A stretch of DNA of 64,000 nt, taken from positions 2,570,525 through 2,634,524 of the forward strand of contig NC_087378.1 in the NCBI RefSeq assembly GCF_963675165.1, in the 5' to 3' direction. This DNA comes from Halichondria panicea. Its lineage: Eukaryota > Porifera > Demospongiae > Suberitida > Halichondriidae. A model generated the notes under the pieces. The model saw only the letters and a list, made by a program, of their open reading frames with translations. It did no database searches and had not been told where the DNA came from. Below, one piece after another: positions 12,127-61,100 of this stretch. The translations under genes and the position numbers were made by a program. How positions within the stretch are numbered: the first letter of the stretch is position 1; each line of letters opens with the position of its first letter.

Positions 12127-14993
12127 CTACTGTTGAAGTCCTTCAGTAAGATATAGTTTTCCGAAGCTATTTCCTGCAATCTCAGTGACCTGCTGACACC
12201 TTAGCTCCACCTGCTCCCCCGCCAGTAAGGCATCCAGACGAGGGGGAGGGTTCACCGGACGCAGGTTCAGCTCTTGCTCAATGGCCTCCTTTGTTATGGG
12301 AAGAAGAGGCTCATTCTGTTGGGCACGGCGGGCATTCTCCTCTTTCTATGGGTGTGTGCATGGGGGGAACACAAAAAGTGAACAAACGAGAAGCTTAAAC
12401 AAAAAGTAGGAGCCTACAAAATAATGCATGCATGCAGGCCTTTGTCTCTAAACAGGACACTTCTATGCATGCAGTTAAACCTGTATATAACAGACACCAT
12501 TGGGAAACAATTAAGGTTGTGTCATTACACAGAGAGGTGTTCGTAGTTGAGAGGTTGTTCTTCTACATGTATGTTTTGTGAGCCAATTCCTGCTTATATA
12601 TAGCGAACCTTAGGACTGTGCTAAATGCTTCTTCAGGTCTTTCAAGCTTTGAAAAAACTGCAGAGATAAGCTAGAGAAAATGCATATCTCGGCAAAAAAA
12701 AAAGCTGGTCATTATACTCAATAGCAAGGTGGCCGTTCTTCAGGGGTTGTCTATATGGTAGGTACACATGGCTGCAATCTGGACCTTAGCTTAAGCGGGG
12801 TTCCACCGTATACAACATTGTATGCTTTAACTTGCTTCTGCAGTGCTTACTTTAAGTATGAGGTTTCAGGCCACACACCATTATAAGAATCAAGAAAGAG
12901 CTCTCAATCTGTCAAATCTTACTATGTCTGGACCTGGTAAGGATTATCATGTATGTACATGCACAATGACAGTGATATGCCGGTAACATTACATTTAAAA
13001 CACACTCACCCTCTTAGCGAAGGCGGCCAACCTGGACTGTGCTTGTTTGGCAAGAGCCTTTTCATAACCAATCAACCGGTAGTTGTCCTGTTGCAGGGTC
13101 TCCACACTCTCCATTAGTAACTGCATGTTCTTCTTAAGCAGCTGGCTACAAAATAGAAGTAAAATAATTATGTAACCAACACCTGATTTAATACACACAG
13201 GCATGACTAGCTATAGTCACAAAACCACACCAACTTGAAACAATCCAATGATTATGATCATGTAATGCGTTTTATCTAACAAGATACCATAATAGCGGGT
13301 CATTTAGGTGGGGTAAAATATTCGTTATTTTCATGGGCAAGCTGCCCTCCATGAAATTTTAACGTAGGTGTGGCTTACCAGAACGTAGGAATGCAGTACA
13401 GCCACGAGACTACGAAATTTTTACTCACAAAAACCACCGTTTTTCAAGTTGAACTAATTTTTTACCCACGAAAATTACCCGCTATACGGTAGCTCAACAT
13501 GTGCACAACTTTACTACATGCACAACTGAGACAGGGTAATAATTCATAGGCTACTGAATAGGCAGCATAATTATACAACTGTAGTTTACGATTAAAACTC
13601 ATATGTAGCCCTATACCTGGACGATAGTCCGAGGAAGTCCATTTTCTTTGGCTGTGTATCTCTGGTGTCCAGCTCACAGAGGAGGGCGTTCATGAGTCGA
13701 GAGTTTCTTATGGTCACTGGCAGCTCTTTCAACATGTCCTTGTGATCTAGCCCAGCCTTCTGTACACTGAGAAACAAAGAAGTACAATAACATAACAGCT
13801 TATAGTCTCTTGAATTACCAGGAATTAGTATGTTTGCACAAGAAATGAAATTCCTACAGAAAGTAATGAACTGTTTTGATGAGAACATTTCCACTTACCT
13901 CTCGGGGCTGAAGGAGTCCCCTCTGGACACCATTTCCACTATAGTGTCAGTAAGTCTGAACGCCTTCAAGCTGAGCACACCATTGGCCGTCCTTAGAGGG
14001 TCTACACACACAAAATCCTGTCACAAACTATTGAAATGTGCTTGTCTATGCTAGGAGCAGAACTATAACGCTCTAAGATTCATCTTAGCACACGACCAAT
14101 CAAGAAAAGAAGACCTTCTGAAATCCAGCTATATATCAAAAAAGTAGTTAATTAGAGGCACATTCTATTAATAGCATATTGCCAATGGGATGGGACTTAA
14201 GGCGATAAACTTAAGTACCATTCTAGATAAAGAATTCACACCCGGATGGCTCACCATAAATGAGAACAATGGACTCTTCGATAGTCTGTTGGTATCGCAC
14301 GTGGCTCTCCAAGAACTCCTTGTTGATGTGGGAGTTGAGGTACGTGGACTGATACCAGCCGACCTGGTGGTAGTCAACGTTGATGGACCGAAGCTTCTTC
14401 AAAATGTTCACCTGGTACTTGGCTGTGTTTATGTGTGGTGGGAGGTGGGGTGTTAGGGATGCAAGCAAGCCCAGTATGTACAAGATTAGAGATTGGTCTA
14501 CATGATAACACTCACTTGTGCTTAACTGGCATGTTTTGTGTATAATAATACGGAAACCATTACCCCAAACATGACAGTCAACAACCATTCCTACCACCAC
14601 ACCCATACATTCATCTTTGCTACAGGTATAAACCCACAATGCCTTTCCGTGTACTTACTCTCCTCTTCTTGGTCGTCCAATTCCTTGGGCAGGGGGAAAC
14701 AGTTGGTGATCTCGAGAGTGGTCCCTACCACCAAGCCCACCAGGAACCCAGTCACGAGTTCAGAGCTGCTACCCTCTTCCTGACAGTGCTTGATCACCTT
14801 CAATGCAACCTGTGGTGAGCAAGCAGGTCATAGTGTCTCATTCCGGCGGGGTACAGTGCCCGTAATTCCCTCTAAATTGCACAAGTGATGTTTACACTTC
14901 ATAATTATTCCTAACTCTGATTAGAGTTACCAATCCATCAACTTGAACATTCTCAATCTCTTTAATAGCTCCTTTTTTACTGCTACCAGCCAT
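12127..14993 (-). CDS. EIF3H: Translation initiation factor eIF3 subunit h
   Basis: MPN-domain subunit of the eIF3 complex, acting in 43S recruitment in the cytoplasm. Seven exons in transcription order: 14993-14931, 14809-14659, 14422-14255, 14001-13899, 13766-13617, 13145-13010, 12345-12127, giving 329 residues against about 350 in human. Family landmarks: N-terminal ENVQVDGL, then ALKVIKHCQEEG, LEITNCFPLP and VGWYQSTYL (the degenerate MPN core), QQTIEESIVLIYDP, LSLKAFRLT, then the helical C-terminal part with NMQLLMESVETLQQD and the final FGKLYLTEGLQQ. The start follows a short GC-rich leader, and the ATG opens 204 bp from the ATG of the divergent Death-domain gene. The JAMM metal ligands are not seen, as expected for eIF3h. 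Very secure. Confidence 0.95.
13287..13489. mobile_element. MITE in an eIF3h intron
   Basis: The outer ends match as inverted repeats: taatagcgggtcatttaggtgggg at left, and cccacgaaaattacccgctatac at right. It belongs to the same family as 11728-11851. It lies in the intron between exons 5 and 6. Confidence 0.55.
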
Positions 14994-15196
14994 GCCGCGC
15001 CGCTGCTCTCTTGTCTAGTCTTGATCTTCCTGATCCTACACGTACGTACACCACGTGGTTAGATTAATTTAGTGAACTCTAAACCCAATATTTACAGCAA
15101 ACTCAGCACTCGACTCTAACTCAGGAAAAGCTAGACATTATACTTTGCTGACTATGCTATTGTAAATCTGGAGGATTCATAGCTATACAAATCACA
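14994..15196. promoter_or_regulatory. Probable bidirectional promoter, eIF3h / Death-domain gene
   Basis: Only 203 bp separate the two divergent start codons, so both core promoters must overlap or abut here unless distal 5' UTR exons exist. No clear TATA box is seen in the sensible positions. Inference from layout only. Confidence 0.5.
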
Positions 15197-18100
15197 ATGG
15201 CATTCAACAGTGAGTTATCTGCTATAAAGCTGACACAAGAATGATTTGATGGTGTAATAATATAATTATTATAAACCACTGTAGGGGGCAGGCCTGAATT
15301 GAAAGACCTTCTTGACCAACTCGGTGTGGTGACAGAATGGGAGTTACTGGGAAATCACTTGGGCATTAAGAGGCACAAGCTCAACGATATCAAAGTGGAG
15401 CGGCATGGTAAAGCCTCCCTGTGCAAGATGGACATGTTTGACTACTGGCTAAGGAGTGATATATACGCTAGCTGGCAGAAGGTGGTGGAAGCCCTGGAAA
15501 AAATGGATGATTTCGGTCTACTATCTCATACTTTGAGAGTCAGCCATGGACTAGGTAAAACTTTATCTCGATATTCAACATGAATATTGTTTTCTTTTAG
15601 CTCCTGCTGTTCCTGCAGAGCCAATGCAATCTTCTCAAGGCGTGCAGCAAGTGAGGTTTGCATCACATGAGACACATGTACATGTACACGAAATGTTTAC
15701 TTTAGCAATCTGTGGGAAAAAAGCCAAATAACCCGCTATACGATAGTAGTATAGTTATGTCACTTAATTGTCAGTGAGTCACTATACAGTACTAATATAT
15801 TTTGTGACTATCCAGGGCTACTCTGCCAGTGCTGGTCACAGTGCAGGGGTTGCTTCTTTGGCTGGTGTGCAAGAAAAAACAGCTATACAAGATACCAGTG
15901 CTCAGAAATCATCCAATATAGCTTTAATCATCAGCTCTTTAACGCGAGATGATAGCAATGTCGATGCTGTTAATGCAATTGATCCGAGTGACCCTAAACT
16001 TTCTGTACTTCAGCAAGCAATTACAGTGAGTTACTATGAATCCACTGAGATCATTTAGACCATCATGTTTGTTTATACAGCGTCGTGCCCTAAATATGGC
16101 CAAAGTGCTTATTGCTCTGGGTGCTGATGTGAACTATGTCAATAGCAAAAACTTGACAGCTTTTGATATTGCCAGCATGATGAGTGATGAAAATGCTTTA
16201 GAGCTTCTAAAGAGTGTTGGAGGACTTCCGTCTTCCTATGTCTACAAAGACACTAGCACTAAAATGGAATCTGAAGAAGAGATGAGATCACAAAGTAAGT
16301 TGTGTGAGGACAACGTTGTGTTAGAGTCATTACAGGTGCATTCGGAAAGTAACATGACTTCTTGCTTGTGGTTACTTTCCAATGCACATATCTCTCTCTC
16401 TTTTAATTGTGGACTCTTGCTGTTAGTAGTCTGTATTCTCTTGTACTTGTAGATCTAGCCGTGTCCCTAGGCTAATCTAACTGCTTGTTTAATTCTGTCG
16501 TATGTACGCACTGAAAAATGTTGTACAATGACTACTCCCCCTTCCTCCCCTCCACTTTTAGCTCATTCCCTTGTTCTGTGTCTGGACAGCAGTGGGGAGA
16601 AGGCGCTCGTGCAGCTGGAGATACTCAACCAACTTGAGAAACTAACTGGCAAGAAGATCTCTGAACTGTTTGATTATATGGTGGGCAGTGGAATTGGAGG
16701 ACTCTTCCTACTAGCCATGGTGTACGGTAAGCTGCCTAGCGTACTTATTCGGCTGCTTAAATTACATTATTTCTAGCGGCCTGAAACCGAGGCTATAGTT
16801 GGACCTCTATTTAGGACGCAACATTTAAAAAAATTTATAGGTCAGAAAATTGCCTAAGATCGAGAGTGTCGCATATTTGGAGGGCCTTAAGTACATAGTA
16901 TTATGGTAATAGTATTGCAAGATCCAAGCCTCACAGAATTTTTTTCTTTTTGGGGTAAGGAAAGTTGGCTATTTGTATCTAGTCTTTTCTGGTTTATGCT
17001 GATCTGACCCCACAGCTGACAAGACTGTGCGTCAGCTCCAAAGGCTATACTATCAGTACATGCAAAGAATGTTGAATGTAACTGACGCCAAGAAGAGTTG
17101 GAGGGAACTGGAGGACTTTTTTCATGATCTGTTTCGACGTACAAGAATGGACGATAACGTCTCTCCCAAGTGAGTGTTCATGAAAACCTATTACACACTA
17201 AAATAGGTTTACATGTGGTTCTTCCTACAGTGGTCGGCCCAGCCACCACTTAACCACCACTTTTATCAATATAAAATGTAGCAATGTGCCAGAAAGTAGC
17301 CACTACTATAGACAATCGTGGGCAGATTCGTTTAGTCATTCATGGCTGTGTACTTTTGTGTAGGGTTCTCATTGCTGCTGTGAACAGGGAGACCACTAAA
17401 CTCAAGCTAAAATTCTTCAGTAACTTTTCAAAAGAGAAAGATTCATCACGTAAGGAAATAACCATACCCCTGTAAAGTGTGGTTTCCCATGACTGTTTTA
17501 TATATTATGTACACACATACTTATTCGTCTTTTTATATATACACACACAGTTCACGTATACAGAGTAGCATGCTACACCTGTGCCACCCCTGAGTACTAT
17601 GGCGTGATAGGCAATGACACAGACCACTACATTCATGGGGGAGCCATCTGCAGAAACCTCACACCCTCTGCTCTGACCTTCATTTACGAGAATTGTAAAA
17701 AGCCCTCCATTACCGGTGTAGTGTCTGTAGGGGAGGGAATCTGGTCGTCTATGCCTTACACGGAGGACACAGATCTATCAGCATGCGCAGCGGTGAGATA
17801 GTACTTGTAGCTTTTCCTTTGTATTTGGCATGTACATACGATGACAGAGCATGCATGTAATTGAAGCACACTCCTTCTTCCCCGGCAGTACCTACTATTA
17901 GCAGTTTGTATATAATTGGAGCATTCCCAGAACATTTTCTTTCTCTCCCGTAGTACTATACACGTGTTTCTCTGTGTGCTTATTTTACGTACCCACCCAC
18001 ACACATTCTATAGGATGCACTGGTGGAGCAGATCCACCAGAACTGTAAGAGCCGGTTCTCTCCCCCCAACCCTGCCTTCTACTACCGTATCAACCCACTT

Positions 18101-18238
18101 TTTCCAGTTCAGACACCGGTGAAGCTACTACTGGAAGACCTCGTTGATTTGCATGTTAATGCTATTGTCACTCTTGTTGGAGAGGAGAGCTCATCATCTC
18201 TGGAAATTAAAAGTCTGGCATATCAGTTAGCTTCCTAA
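15197..18238 (+). CDS. Death domain + ankyrin + catalytically dead PLA2G6-like patatin protein
   Basis: Ten exons: 15197-15209, 15285-15554, 15601-15650, 15816-16025, 16081-16294, 16562-16726, 17016-17169, 17364-17449, 17551-17792, 18014-18238; 542 residues. Residues about 6-100 form a Death-superfamily fold (ELKDLLDQLGVVTEWELLG, then W at the expected helix and LLSHTLRVS). Residues about 150-235 include one clear ankyrin repeat (LNMAKVLIALGADVNYVNSK). From residue 253 it follows calcium-independent phospholipase A2 beta: LCLDSSGEKALV, ELFDYMVGSGIGGLFLLA, YRVACYTCATPEYY, IHGGAICRN, VVSVGEG, FYYRINP. In active enzymes these are DGGG-x-(K/R)-G, GTSTG and DGG. Here the nucleophile position is Gly296 (codon 16690-16692) and the Asp is His416 (17634-17636), so hydrolysis is not expected. 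The role is probably scaffolding or signalling through the Death domain (inference). Confidence 0.87.
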
Positions 18239-47851: not shown

Positions 47852-50800
47852 TTCAACTTGGTGCCCAACGCTGTACAGCTTGAGGGGGTGCCTGCACAAA
47901 CGAAAATAACGTCACTTGTGTTTTCCTACATATGTAATGGCATAAATCTTACCCCTCCAGCCAGCACGGCAGATATGGCTGCTTTTTTCTTGTCAATGTT
48001 CTGAGAAACAAACTGGCTCTGGAAAGCCAGACTCTTAGTTTTGTCAATCACTCTTTGATAGAGTGACGTCGTCTGTGTGTTCATGATGACATGACCCTGA
48101 GGGAATAAAATTAGACATTAGCTAATAGGGTCACGACCAGCTAGGTTACTTCAGTGAGAGGAATTGTCTAGCCCCCAAGACAACAGTTTTGTATTCATAC
48201 CACTTCAGATACATATATAATCATACTAGAAGAGGACATATTTCTACAGTGTAGAGAGAATCGAAACAGACCTCCAATGCGTCAATCTTTGCATCCAACT
48301 TTGCATTCCTGATGAGGTTCACAATCCACTTCTCAGCATCATCACTGCTCATGTTCAGCTTGGTGGCTAGCATGCTACAAGAGGCAACATTGAACATCAT
48401 GCAGGATCAAGTAAACACTACAATGCATGCGCGCTACCTTATGCTGATACAGTGATGGATCCTACAGAAGGTCTCAAAGATAGAGAGACGAGCATTCTCA
48501 ATGAAGGCTCCTTTGCATGCAACTAGGAAGAAGTCATTCTCCAGTACCTAAGTATAATAAGCAGCATAATCATTAATTTTTTTAAAACATGAATTCAAAA
48601 TTACTTTTTCACATTCTGCCAACTTTTGCTGAGCTAGGTCAAAATCAAACTTGACATAGAGGCATTCCACAAACTCAGTGATCGGATCTCGATAAGCGTA
48701 AGATTCCTGTACAGAAGGAACGTTAAGTGCATGAAAGAAAGATAGTGTACATGGCTTACATGTTTGATGATTCTAACGAGGTCTTTGAGCAGGGTCTGTC
48801 TCTTCTTGCTGGTGATGACCGAAGCTGTCAGGTAACGGAAGATATGAGGACAACACGTCTGAATAGCATTTAGGTAACTGGAGGAGAAAGAAGTTTGTGT
48901 ATAAGGTACAAAAAACAAGGATATTCCTAGGCTTATATAAGAGTATTTTAGAGCATTCACTCACTCTTGGGTGAATAAGAATAAGTTGATAATCTCTTCT
49001 TGTCCCTTGGGATGGTTGAAGTAGACGAACAGACTCCAGTGAATTAGCCAGGTTCTCTGCTGAAGTCTCGTCAGGTGAGGAACATTTGGCTGTGTAACGT
49101 AGAATAATGGGCAACTTTCTTGGCAATCAGTAAATGGAATTACACACTCTATTTCCAAGAGGGGAAGAGCTAGGAGTTACAGCCATGGGGGTAGGGGACA
49201 AAGCAAACTTAGGGGCCCGGGCCTACTCTCCTGTCTTAAGGTTACGGTAAACAGTTTGCTCATGAAATTCATGATTTTCTTATAATGATTTTTATGAAAC
49301 TATAAATGCCATGAGAGAAGTTTGAAGCACATACATGATAAATATATCGTTGTATCAATCTGTATGACAAGTATCAATCTTCAAAACATCTTTCAGTGGA
49401 AGCTCTGAGCGATCATCGAAACAACACAAAACTAGTAGTCATTTTAAAAATCCAAAAACACTTCTAGCTCTGTGTTCTTGGTCTTATATGATGCTTCTTA
49501 CCATTCTGGAGGGCGGGTCGAAGCGTTTTTTTCTTTCCAGGCCAACAAACTCTCACAAAATAATAATATGTAGACTAACTCCACTTAAAATTGCGGCCAG
49601 AGCCAAGGAAAACAGCCTCTTGTGAGCTTTTAGTAGCCTTTTTTCAAATATCTCTTCGACCCGCCCTGCATATAGTGAAGCTACAGTAGACTGTACCTAA
49701 GAATGTCTATTCGAGCCATGAAATGACTACTGTGTTTCAGCTGGACTTCCAGCTCATTCTAGCTGGAAAAGATCACTAGATCTAGCTCATGAATAATTAA
49801 TGAGCAAACGGTTGACCGTAACCTTAACCCCCTCCCACAGCACAGGGAGATGGTTCAATACTGACTCACTGTCTCATCAATTTCCCTCCTCAGTTTAGCG
49901 AGCTCTTCCAAAGCACTGTCCCAGTCTTGCACTAGAATGGAACACGACAGCTTTCCCCACTCAGCACTCATTAGATTCTGGTGGTCAGCAGGTGCCTATA
50001 TACAATAATGAAAATGATACGGTGCCAAACACACGACTCCACAAGACGTCAAGGGCTAAGACACGTTAAGGACCCCGAAACAACTCTCAATCAGACGATT
50101 GGTTTACAACTCCAATTGGATTCTTACCAATAGTCTGTAAAAGTATAGATACTCTGCTGCATCAGCATATGTTCCACACTCAAACTTGAACTTGGCACAA
50201 TCGTGAATTACATCCACCATCTTCACCTCAAACTACAAAACGACAAGAAACCATTAGGCCTAGGGCTGCATCTCATGTGTACCTCTACGTACCTGATGAT
50301 TTTGAATCAAATATTCTAGCAAATTCTGATCCTCCCTACAATGTGTCGAATACAAGGTATTACAAGTGACTACATGTACTCACTTTCCACTTGAACTTTC
50401 GAGTTCCTCTGAGTCGGTAAGGATGTCGAGGATTGGCCCAAGAGCCTGATCAAATTCATGCAGCTTACTCACAACTAACCCTCTCCTTTCGACTAAATCT
50501 GAGAGGAAAAGTGCAGTATAGCAGGAAGCTACAGGAAGTCTATTTAAACACTGATAAGTTTGGGGAAGTTAACTGATAAGGTACTGGGCACCATGTACCA
50601 TAAATGTCAAGTACGACCGCCTCTTGGGAAATGGTGAGAGGTTGTATTTAATTATAAATACTCAGTGGCTTCAAAGATTTGTATACAGTGCAGATGGTCT
50701 ACTGTACTATGTATTGCGAATGCTTAGGACACGCTGAATTTCTGAGTATGAGTTTCTGAGTATGAGGAAGCCCTTACTCGAACTCACCTTCTGGGTCAGG

Positions 50801-58113: not shown

Positions 58114-61100
58114 ATGTCTGAGGACAGTCAGCCAAAGGATACACACTTGCACTCAGCTGCAAGTAGTGGAGACATAGAGGGTGTCAAACGTCTGCTAAAC
58201 TCAAGACAACTTAAAGACACCATAAATTCTAGTGGACAGACATGCACCTCTTCATCTTGCTTGTGCCAATGGGCACCTTCATATTGTTGATGTCCTGGTT
58301 AATGAGTATGGTGCAGATATTGAGATCCTCGATGCCAATGGTTGCAATTCACTTGAAGTTTCTGCTAGAAGCAGTAACATTCAGATATTGTTCTTTCTTG
58401 TGCTTACTGCCATATATGGACAGAGACATAGCAAGAAATTAAGAGGATCATCTTCGCATGTAGTGTGCACACTAAAACAAGACACAGCAATAATAGAACA
58501 GATTCTATTAAAATACTATCATGATACTCAAGCTAAGGAGCAAACTGGAACAGTGTTACTCACAGCGTTTAGTGATGTGCTTACGAATGCTGAAAATAAT
58601 TATAGCAATTTCTATCCGCCTTTCTTAGCAGCTACACTTGGTCTTACAAATGTTATAGACATCTTTGTTCATGAATATGGCTGTGACATTAATATCAAGG
58701 GATTTATAGGTTTAACCATTCTCCATGGGGCTTGCTTTGGAGGACATGTTCAAATAGTGCAAAAGCTTATTGGTGAGCATGGCATTGATCCGCATACAAC
58801 TACTAACAACAACGATCAGTCAATTCTCCATTATGCGGCTTTGGGAGGTAGTGTTGATATAGTTTCTTCACTGATTGCAAATTATGGGCTAAACCCTTGT
58901 GTTCTTAACAAATTCTATGACTCGCCCCTTAGTGTAGCTGCTTTAAATGGTCATACGGAACTTGTACGAGCACTGATTGAAAAGTATAATTGTGATCCTT
59001 TTGCAACCAGTCATCACGGATCTACTCTTCTTCACCATGCATGTGCCTCTGGAGAAATACCACTTGTTAATGAGCTTGTAAGAAAGTATCAACTAGACAT
59101 AGCAACCAAAGATGAGGCAGGCTTTATGCCACTACATACAGCTGCTTGTCAAGGACAAACAAAAGTAGTGGTACATCTTATTAGCATACTGCAAGCAAAT
59201 GTTAATGCTGTTACTGATAGAAATGAGAGTGCATTGAGTCTTGCTACTCTACATGGCCACAAAGATTTAGTTCATAAACTTATAAGTGACTATAACTGCA
59301 ACCCTCATGTTGAAGGCAGAAGTCTTCTTCACTATGCCACTCAAGGTGGCCACATTGAACTAATCGACACACTGATAACTGGCTACAACCTTAACTTGAG
59401 GGTTAGAGATGATAACGGCCATACACTTCTACATGTTGCTGCAATTTATGGCCAGTTTGGAGCATTGCAGCACTTAGCTCAAACAGAAACAATAGATATT
59501 GATTGTCTCAGTAACGATGGCTCTACACCACTTCATCTAGCAGCATTGGAAGGACAGAACCATATCCTGCGTGTTCTAATAGAAGAGTTTAACAGTAATC
59601 CCTTGGCTAAAGGGTACGTGGGCCTAACAATTCTTCATTATGCCTGTCAAAATGGTGATAATGAGTTAGTGGACGAAATAATAGCTAAGTATGGACTCGA
59701 TCCAATGACAGAAACTGATTATCAAAATACTCCTCTGCACATTGCTGCTAGGCACGGACAAGTTGCAACAGTGAAATATTTAATCACAAAGTACCATGTT
59801 GAAGTTGATTGCCTCAACAGTCAGTAGCGTACTCCTTTGGGTGAGGCAGTGCTATTTGGACACAAAAGTGTAATGGATTTACTCACAAACGAATTTGATT
59901 CTGATTCTCATGTCAAAGGCTTTGAAGGCAGAACTCTTCTTCATTATGCTACTGAAGGTGGCCACATCGAACTAATTAACGCGCTGATAACTGACTACAA
60001 CCTTGACTTGATGGTTAGAGATGATAACGGCCATACACTTCTACATGTTGCCGCCATCTATGGCCAGTTTGAAGCATTGCAGCACTTAGCTCAAACAGAA
60101 ACAATAGACATTGATTGTCTCAATAACAATGGTTCTACACCACTTCATCTGGCAGCATTGAATAGACATAACCATATCTTACGTGTTCTAATAAAAAAGT
60201 TTAACAGTAATCCCTTTGCTAAAGGGTATGTGGGCCAAACGATTCTTCATTATGCCTGTAAAAATGGTGATAACAAGTTAGTGGACGAAATAATAACTAA
60301 GTATGGACTCAATCCAATGACAGAAACTGATTATCGTAATACTCCTTTGCACTTTGCTGCTAGACACGGGCAAGTTGCAACAGTCAAACATTTAATCACA
60401 AAGCACCATGTTGAAGTTGATTGCCTCAACAGTCAGCAGCGTACTCCTTTGGATGAGGCAGTGCTATATGGACACAAAAATGTAATGGATTTACTTTTAA
60501 AAGAATTTACCTCTGATCCTCATGTCAAAGGCTTTGAAGGCAGAACTCTTCTTCACTATTCCACTCAAGGTGGCCACATTGAACTAATCGACACACTGAT
60601 AACTGGCTACAACCTTAACTTGAGGGTTAGAGATGATAACGGCCATACACTTTTACATGTTGCCGCCAGGTATGGCCAGTTTGGAGCATTGCAACACTTA
60701 GCTCTAAAAAACACAATAAACATTGATTGTCTCAGTAACGATGGCTCTACACCACTTCATCTAGCAGCATTGGAAGGACAGAACCATATCCTGCGTGTTC
60801 TAATAGAAGAGTTTAACAGTAATCCCTTGGCTAAAGGGTACGTGGGCCTAACAATTCTTCATTATGCCTGTCAAAATGGTGATAATGAGTTAGTGGACGA
60901 AATAATAGCTAAGTATGGACTCGATCCAATGACAGAAACTGATTATCAAAATACTCCTCTGCACATTGCTGCTAGGCACGGACAAGTTGCAACAGTGAAA
61001 TATTTAATCACAAAGTACCATGTTGAAGTTGATTGCCTCAACAGTCAGCAGCGTACTCCTTTGGGTGAGGCAGTGCTATTTGGACACAAAAGTGTAATGG

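Follow-up and report, generated by a model that had tools for sequence, protein, structure and literature searches.

A Death domain ahead of an ankyrin stretch and an iPLA2beta-type patatin domain without catalytic residues in the sponge Halichondria panicea

A locus of the sponge Halichondria panicea raises the question of why an open reading frame is found intact in a phospholipase-like gene whose catalytic residues are gone, and what a Death domain is doing at its start. The stretch analysed (the window) comprises 64,000 nucleotides of contig C2 (NC_087378.1, positions 2,570,525 to 2,634,524) of the 131-Mb, 39-contig genome (GCF_963675165.1). The gene lies on the plus strand at 15197-18238 (window coordinates, as below unless a contig is named); its ten exons join into one frame of 542 codons plus a stop codon, and its nine introns, 46-289 bp long, are all GT-AG, as the original prediction had described. 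Pfam gives the domain order, from the N- to the C-terminus, as Death, a short ankyrin stretch, and a patatin domain of the type found in calcium-independent phospholipase A2 beta (iPLA2beta; PLA2G6). The best explanation, which we consider probable from the sequence, is that this is a gene of the iPLA2beta family with an N-terminal Death domain and with its catalytic residues lost, and that the product would be a pseudoenzyme retained for a binding role.

In iPLA2beta, Ser465 and Asp598 are named as the catalytic dyad (PMC12871566). In the alignment to the structure of hamster iPLA2beta (PDB 6AUN), Ser465 falls on Gly296 (codon 16690-16692), so that GTSTG becomes GSGIG, and Asp598 falls on His416 (codon 17634-17636), so that DGG becomes HGG. 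The oxyanion loop DGGG reads DSSG: Ser262 and Ser263 (codons 16588-16593) stand in place of two glycines, and the third glycine, 264, is retained. At positions 262 and 263 glycine is present in all five active rows of the alignment, namely the paralogues C2A, C15, C12, and C2B from the same genome, and 6AUN. Exon 6 (16562-16726; Pfam and 6AUN alignment) begins the patatin domain and holds both the oxyanion loop and the nucleophile elbow; HGG lies in exon 9 (17551-17792; 6AUN and paralogue alignment). These replacements of the nucleophile, the catalytic aspartate, and the loop had been read from the sequence at the outset, and the alignments to 6AUN and the paralogues bear them out. A tblastn search of the 64-kb window with the five active rows found no alternative exon restoring GxSxG and DGG; four GxSxG strings occur between 15.0 and 18.6 kb, all of them in other frames, on the other strand, or in the linker. 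By sequence, as an enzyme homologue without catalytic residues, the predicted protein counts as a pseudoenzyme, and with those residues lost it probably works in binding or assembly and not in catalysis.

The remainder of the protein ties it to iPLA2beta. A Pfam scan of the full 542-residue protein returned seven matches up to E 10, including Patatin at residues 258-420 (30.6 bits; cut-off 27.7) and Ank_4 at residues 177-224 (27.7 bits; cut-off 22.7). The ankyrin stretch (16011-16209, interrupted by the intron 16026-16080) starts in exon 4 (15816-16025; linker and ankyrin start, from the in-frame join and Pfam) and continues into exon 5 (16081-16294; ankyrin and linker to patatin, from the in-frame join, Pfam, and the 6AUN match). 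The closest solved relative is 6AUN (E 7.8e-17). An alignment with PLA2G6 along the whole length had been claimed; it is strong for residues 109-381 only, and a search with the patatin part against 6AUN gave the HGG stretch 1.1 bits and left exon 10 unaligned. Exon 7 (17016-17169; patatin) is supported by its in-frame join and by alignment columns, and exons 8 and 9 by their match to the paralogue C2B (joint E 7.9e-12), to which exon 8 (17364-17449; patatin) is 65% identical over 26 alignment columns. Exon 10 (18014-18238), which carries the end of the patatin domain and the stop codon, has weak homology (tblastn with C2A, only E=10). The phase-1 intron after the VY residues at the end of exon 6 is common to C15, C12, and C2B and absent in C2A; the phase-2 intron after PK at the end of exon 7 is common to C15, C2B, and C2A, and in C12 would need a GC donor. 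The shared intron positions therefore argue for descent from a spliced iPLA2-like family.

The Death domain is carried by exon 2 (15285-15554; residues about 5-94), which was identified with Pfam and with a model of the genome's own Death domains. Scanned alone, exon 2 scores 25.9 bits against Pfam Death, above the cut-off; against the model of 13 other Death domains from the same genome, built with the window row left out (11 domains from a cluster on C1, one from C12, and one from C8), it scores 54.0 bits, and the best of 999 shuffles scores 10.1. Its nearest relatives within the genome are the Death domains of the C1 cluster, with 31-36% identity. The genome is rich in such domains, with at least 148 Pfam Death matches (150 of 503 candidates scored). 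The cluster itself, at C1:3913408-3979986, is a tandem array of closely similar Death-domain exons at 13 places (loci L022, L024, L026, L027, L030-L034, L036, and L038); seven open frames beside the C1 and C8 Death exons were scanned with Pfam, and none had a match at cut-off.

Eight iPLA2-like loci accompany the window gene in the genome: C2A (three copies), C15, C12, C2B (on C2, at 6.81 Mb), C2:6803177, and C11, a count that leaves out more distant patatins on C16, C13, and C10. DGGG and GxSxG are present in all eight and DGG in seven, the corresponding exon of C11 being outside the sequence examined. Over the patatin domain, the window gene is 28.6-36.0% identical to the four paralogues compared. 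A Death-bearing, catalytically altered gene of the iPLA2beta family was found once in the genome. Upstream of C15, C12, one C2A copy, and C2B, Pfam detected no Death domain in 30 open frames; Pfam was given only frames of at least 58 amino acids, and only part of those listed, so that it could have overlooked a Death exon that is short or divergent. The model of 13 Death domains, run at E up to 1 on the open frames from the patatin loci, likewise found no same-strand Death domain upstream of these four; apart from the window gene, its sole match at a patatin locus is an opposite-strand frame in locus L040 (E 0.0036). For C11, C2:6803177, and one C2A copy the flank is about 1.5 kb only, which scarcely covers upstream exons. 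Three iPLA2-like genes at C2:2641331, C2:3371263, and C2:3391786 are near-identical in the first patatin exon, and two of them are about 20 kb apart; each of the three has a Pfam Death match on the opposite strand, at a distance of about 1-2 kb.

Several observations weigh against a maintained Death-patatin pseudoenzyme. In the full-length Pfam scan the Death match (residues 9-79) reaches 21.8 bits, just under the cut-off of 22.6. The single-sequence fold of exon 2 is helical and poor (predicted local distance difference test score, pLDDT, 58), and with this model Foldseek returned nothing at E 0.001 and six matches in all, the best at E 7.3 (a p75NTR Death-domain entry at rank 6, E 9.7, was discounted). 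In the patatin part, 12 of the 48 non-catalytic columns that are invariant in the five active rows have changed as well. The end branch of the window gene is 3.4 changes per column long versus 0.16-0.86 in the four paralogues, so the patatin part evolves fast, and such a branch is also expected from relaxed selection. None of the three inner branches of the six-row tree is starred, and the window row and 6AUN are both very long; only branch length was used from this tree, and placement was disregarded.

The rival explanation to which these last points lend most weight is that the phospholipase function was lost recently and the gene is drifting under relaxed selection toward a pseudogene, its fusion to a Death domain being incidental. 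The long end branch, the altered non-catalytic columns, and an exon 10 that is barely recognisable speak for it, and the open frame accommodates it if the loss is young: in simulations of neutral decay (300 runs per distance), the frame remained without a stop in 30% of runs at 0.02 substitutions per site and in 5.7% at 0.05. The proportion falls to 0.3% (1/300) at 0.1, and no run stayed open at 0.14 or more. The window gene keeps 36 of the 52 columns invariant in the active rows, and the 16 that changed correspond to about 0.14-0.2 neutral substitutions per site, assuming that the changes came after the loss of catalysis. The open frame alone is thus compatible with a very recent loss, but the extent of change in the invariant columns suggests that catalysis was lost earlier, at a distance where no simulated frame stayed open. 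The gene itself has no stop or frameshift in its 542 codons, and every intron is GT-AG. Retention is also selective. The 16 changed columns include all four scored as catalytic (262, 263, 296, and 416; P 0.0067; with the retained third loop glycine also scored, four of five catalytic columns are changed, P 0.027), and 36 of the 48 others are kept. We regard decay as rather unlikely: an open frame combined with selective retention of family-invariant residues fits a maintained pseudoenzyme better than a decaying gene. The earlier proposal of maintenance accordingly stands as favoured but not proven, with the frame and the kept columns on its side and the fast evolution of the patatin part against it.

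Another possibility is that two genes have been read as one, either a small Death-only gene followed by one for ankyrin and patatin, or exons 1-5 joined incorrectly. Exon 1 (15197-15209), the weakest of the model, has just 13 nt; it contains the ATG, encodes MAFN, and was placed by its GT donor and in-frame join. Exon 3 (15601-15650; linker, in-frame, GT-AG) has just 50 nt, and none of the four examined paralogues was found to be preceded by a Death domain. On the other side, exons 2-6 are continuous in frame with standard splice sites, and the open frame of exon 2 has no ATG ahead of residue 52, so the Death exon requires exon 1, and downstream exons are available for it to splice to. With the presumed start codon of the neighbouring gene only 203 bp upstream on the opposite strand, a separate Death gene would have little space. 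This neighbour is a divergent eIF3h, which runs left on the minus strand (JAB, 39.2 bits, and eIF3h_C, 41.6 bits, by Pfam in two separate open frames); its presumed start codon (14991-14993, minus strand, read by eye) bounds the Death-patatin gene on the 5' side. A misjoined model is therefore held to be quite unlikely. From this layout, which is good but indirect evidence, the Death domain appears to be part of the same transcription unit as the patatin domain, and the fusion of an N-terminal Death domain to ankyrin and patatin is upheld by Pfam on exon 2, the continuous frame, and the arrangement of the locus. The divergent pair may share a two-way promoter at 14991-15199.

It is similarly improbable that function lies in the Death and ankyrin parts alone, in a neo-functional protein whose patatin part is a remnant without a binding role. 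The Death and ankyrin parts do score independently while the patatin part evolves fast; against this, the patatin part still passes the Pfam cut-off and keeps its 36 of 52 invariant columns. An active, rewired hydrolase, in which for example a serine of DSSG and His416 replace the canonical Ser-Asp dyad, is the least credible alternative and highly improbable: two loop serines and a histidine at the aspartate position would lie near the old active site, judging by the fold, but the oxyanion loop itself is altered, no new dyad is apparent from the sequence alone, and we know of no precedent for such a rewired dyad among patatins.

If binding is what keeps this pseudoenzyme, the most likely mechanism would be a dimeric scaffold without catalysis that presents Death domains and perhaps pairs with active paralogues. 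The altered patatin domain may have kept dimerisation of the iPLA2beta type, as a homodimer or together with an active paralogue. In a patatin dimer two Death domains would lie next to each other and could provide a seed for Death-fold assembly; alternatively, pairing with a paralogue could recruit Death-domain partners to a working phospholipase. The former lipid pocket might sense a ligand or the membrane. An adaptor that senses lipid or membrane in apoptosis or innate immunity, as in the original prediction, is an inference. A bolder idea is that the dead iPLA2beta subunit pairs with active paralogues and that Death assembly switches hydrolysis of membrane phospholipids on or off; we offer it as a long shot, and it is testable because the active-looking paralogues share the genome. 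If true, it would be an animal Death-fold counterpart of fungal and bacterial patatin immune effectors, with the enzyme split from the receptor part. A dead patatin joined to a Death domain would form a direct physical link, in an animal, between phospholipase biology and Death-fold signalling, and it would add a patatin case to the pseudoenzymes that may regulate active paralogues.

Other features of the window and of the paralogous loci are of separate interest. Downstream of the gene there are minus-strand open frames at 18.4-19.5 kb; three of them were scanned with Pfam and had no match, and it is only a guess that these frames make up a gene. The window also contains minus-strand exons at 48275-50205 that we take to be eIF3e-like. 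Partial eIF3e-like copies occur at L039 5915-7094 and L040 6884-7693 (both minus strand), upstream of and on the same strand as two C2A copies, and the C-terminal piece was found in the window only; these pieces are possibly partial duplications or chimeric eIF3e-ankyrin-patatin genes. An ankyrin-like stretch repeats at multiples of 612 bp at 59657, 60881, 61493, 62105, and 62717 (plus strand), a recurrence unreported by Tandem Repeats Finder, for which periods were limited to 500.

Among known systems, iPLA2beta (PLA2G6, PNPLA9; 6AUN) is the closest: in both proteins ankyrin precedes patatin, and motifs around the active site are common to the two. The window protein differs in lacking the catalytic serine and aspartate, in having DSSG for DGGG, in its additional Death domain, and in a single 48-residue ankyrin match where iPLA2beta is described as having eight or nine repeats (PMC8071342; PMC12871566). 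The patatin domains of iPLA2beta are reported to form a tight dimer, with the ankyrin repeats splayed outwards and in position to contact membrane proteins (PMC5823874), and a caspase-3 site is described in the mammalian protein (PMC8071342). The active-looking paralogues resemble the window gene in intron positions and patatin sequence and differ in that their catalytic motifs are intact wherever seen and that a search upstream of four of them found no Death domain.

Proteins that begin with Death-type domains are familiar from sponges. Numerous Amphimedon proteins are described with N-terminal Death-like domains, TRADD-N, followed by ankyrins or other domains (PMC8195603), and Death-NACHT-LRR (leucine-rich repeat) proteins are described as well (PMC12909245). 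The window protein resembles these in its Death-type domain at the N-terminus and in the variable domains, ankyrins included, that come after it; it differs in its patatin domain, a word that appears in neither main text (PMC8195603; PMC12909245), and none of its seven Pfam matches is to a NACHT, NB-ARC, or TRADD family. No paper on a Death-patatin-ankyrin combination was found in the open-licence PubMed Central literature, seen mostly as titles and abstract openings, in agreement with the original prediction that no such system had been described. Searches with the whole protein of prokaryotic and viral contig collections gave 18 and 3 pattern matches, respectively, none of which was confirmed, a result uninformative on other animals. 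As far as searched, then, this is a new domain combination within a known kind of protein, represented by one gene in one genome.

Patatin domains coupled to an immune or cell-death module are known from fungi and bacteria, in the fungal patatin NLR PLP-1 (PMC12881547) and in CapV of the bacterial cyclic oligonucleotide-based antiphage signalling system (CBASS); CBASS phospholipases such as CapV are among the PDB matches of the window protein. For PLP-1, cell death is reported to require patatin activity (PMC12881547). The window protein would share with PLP-1 and CapV the coupling of patatin to such a module, and unlike them it has lost its catalytic residues.
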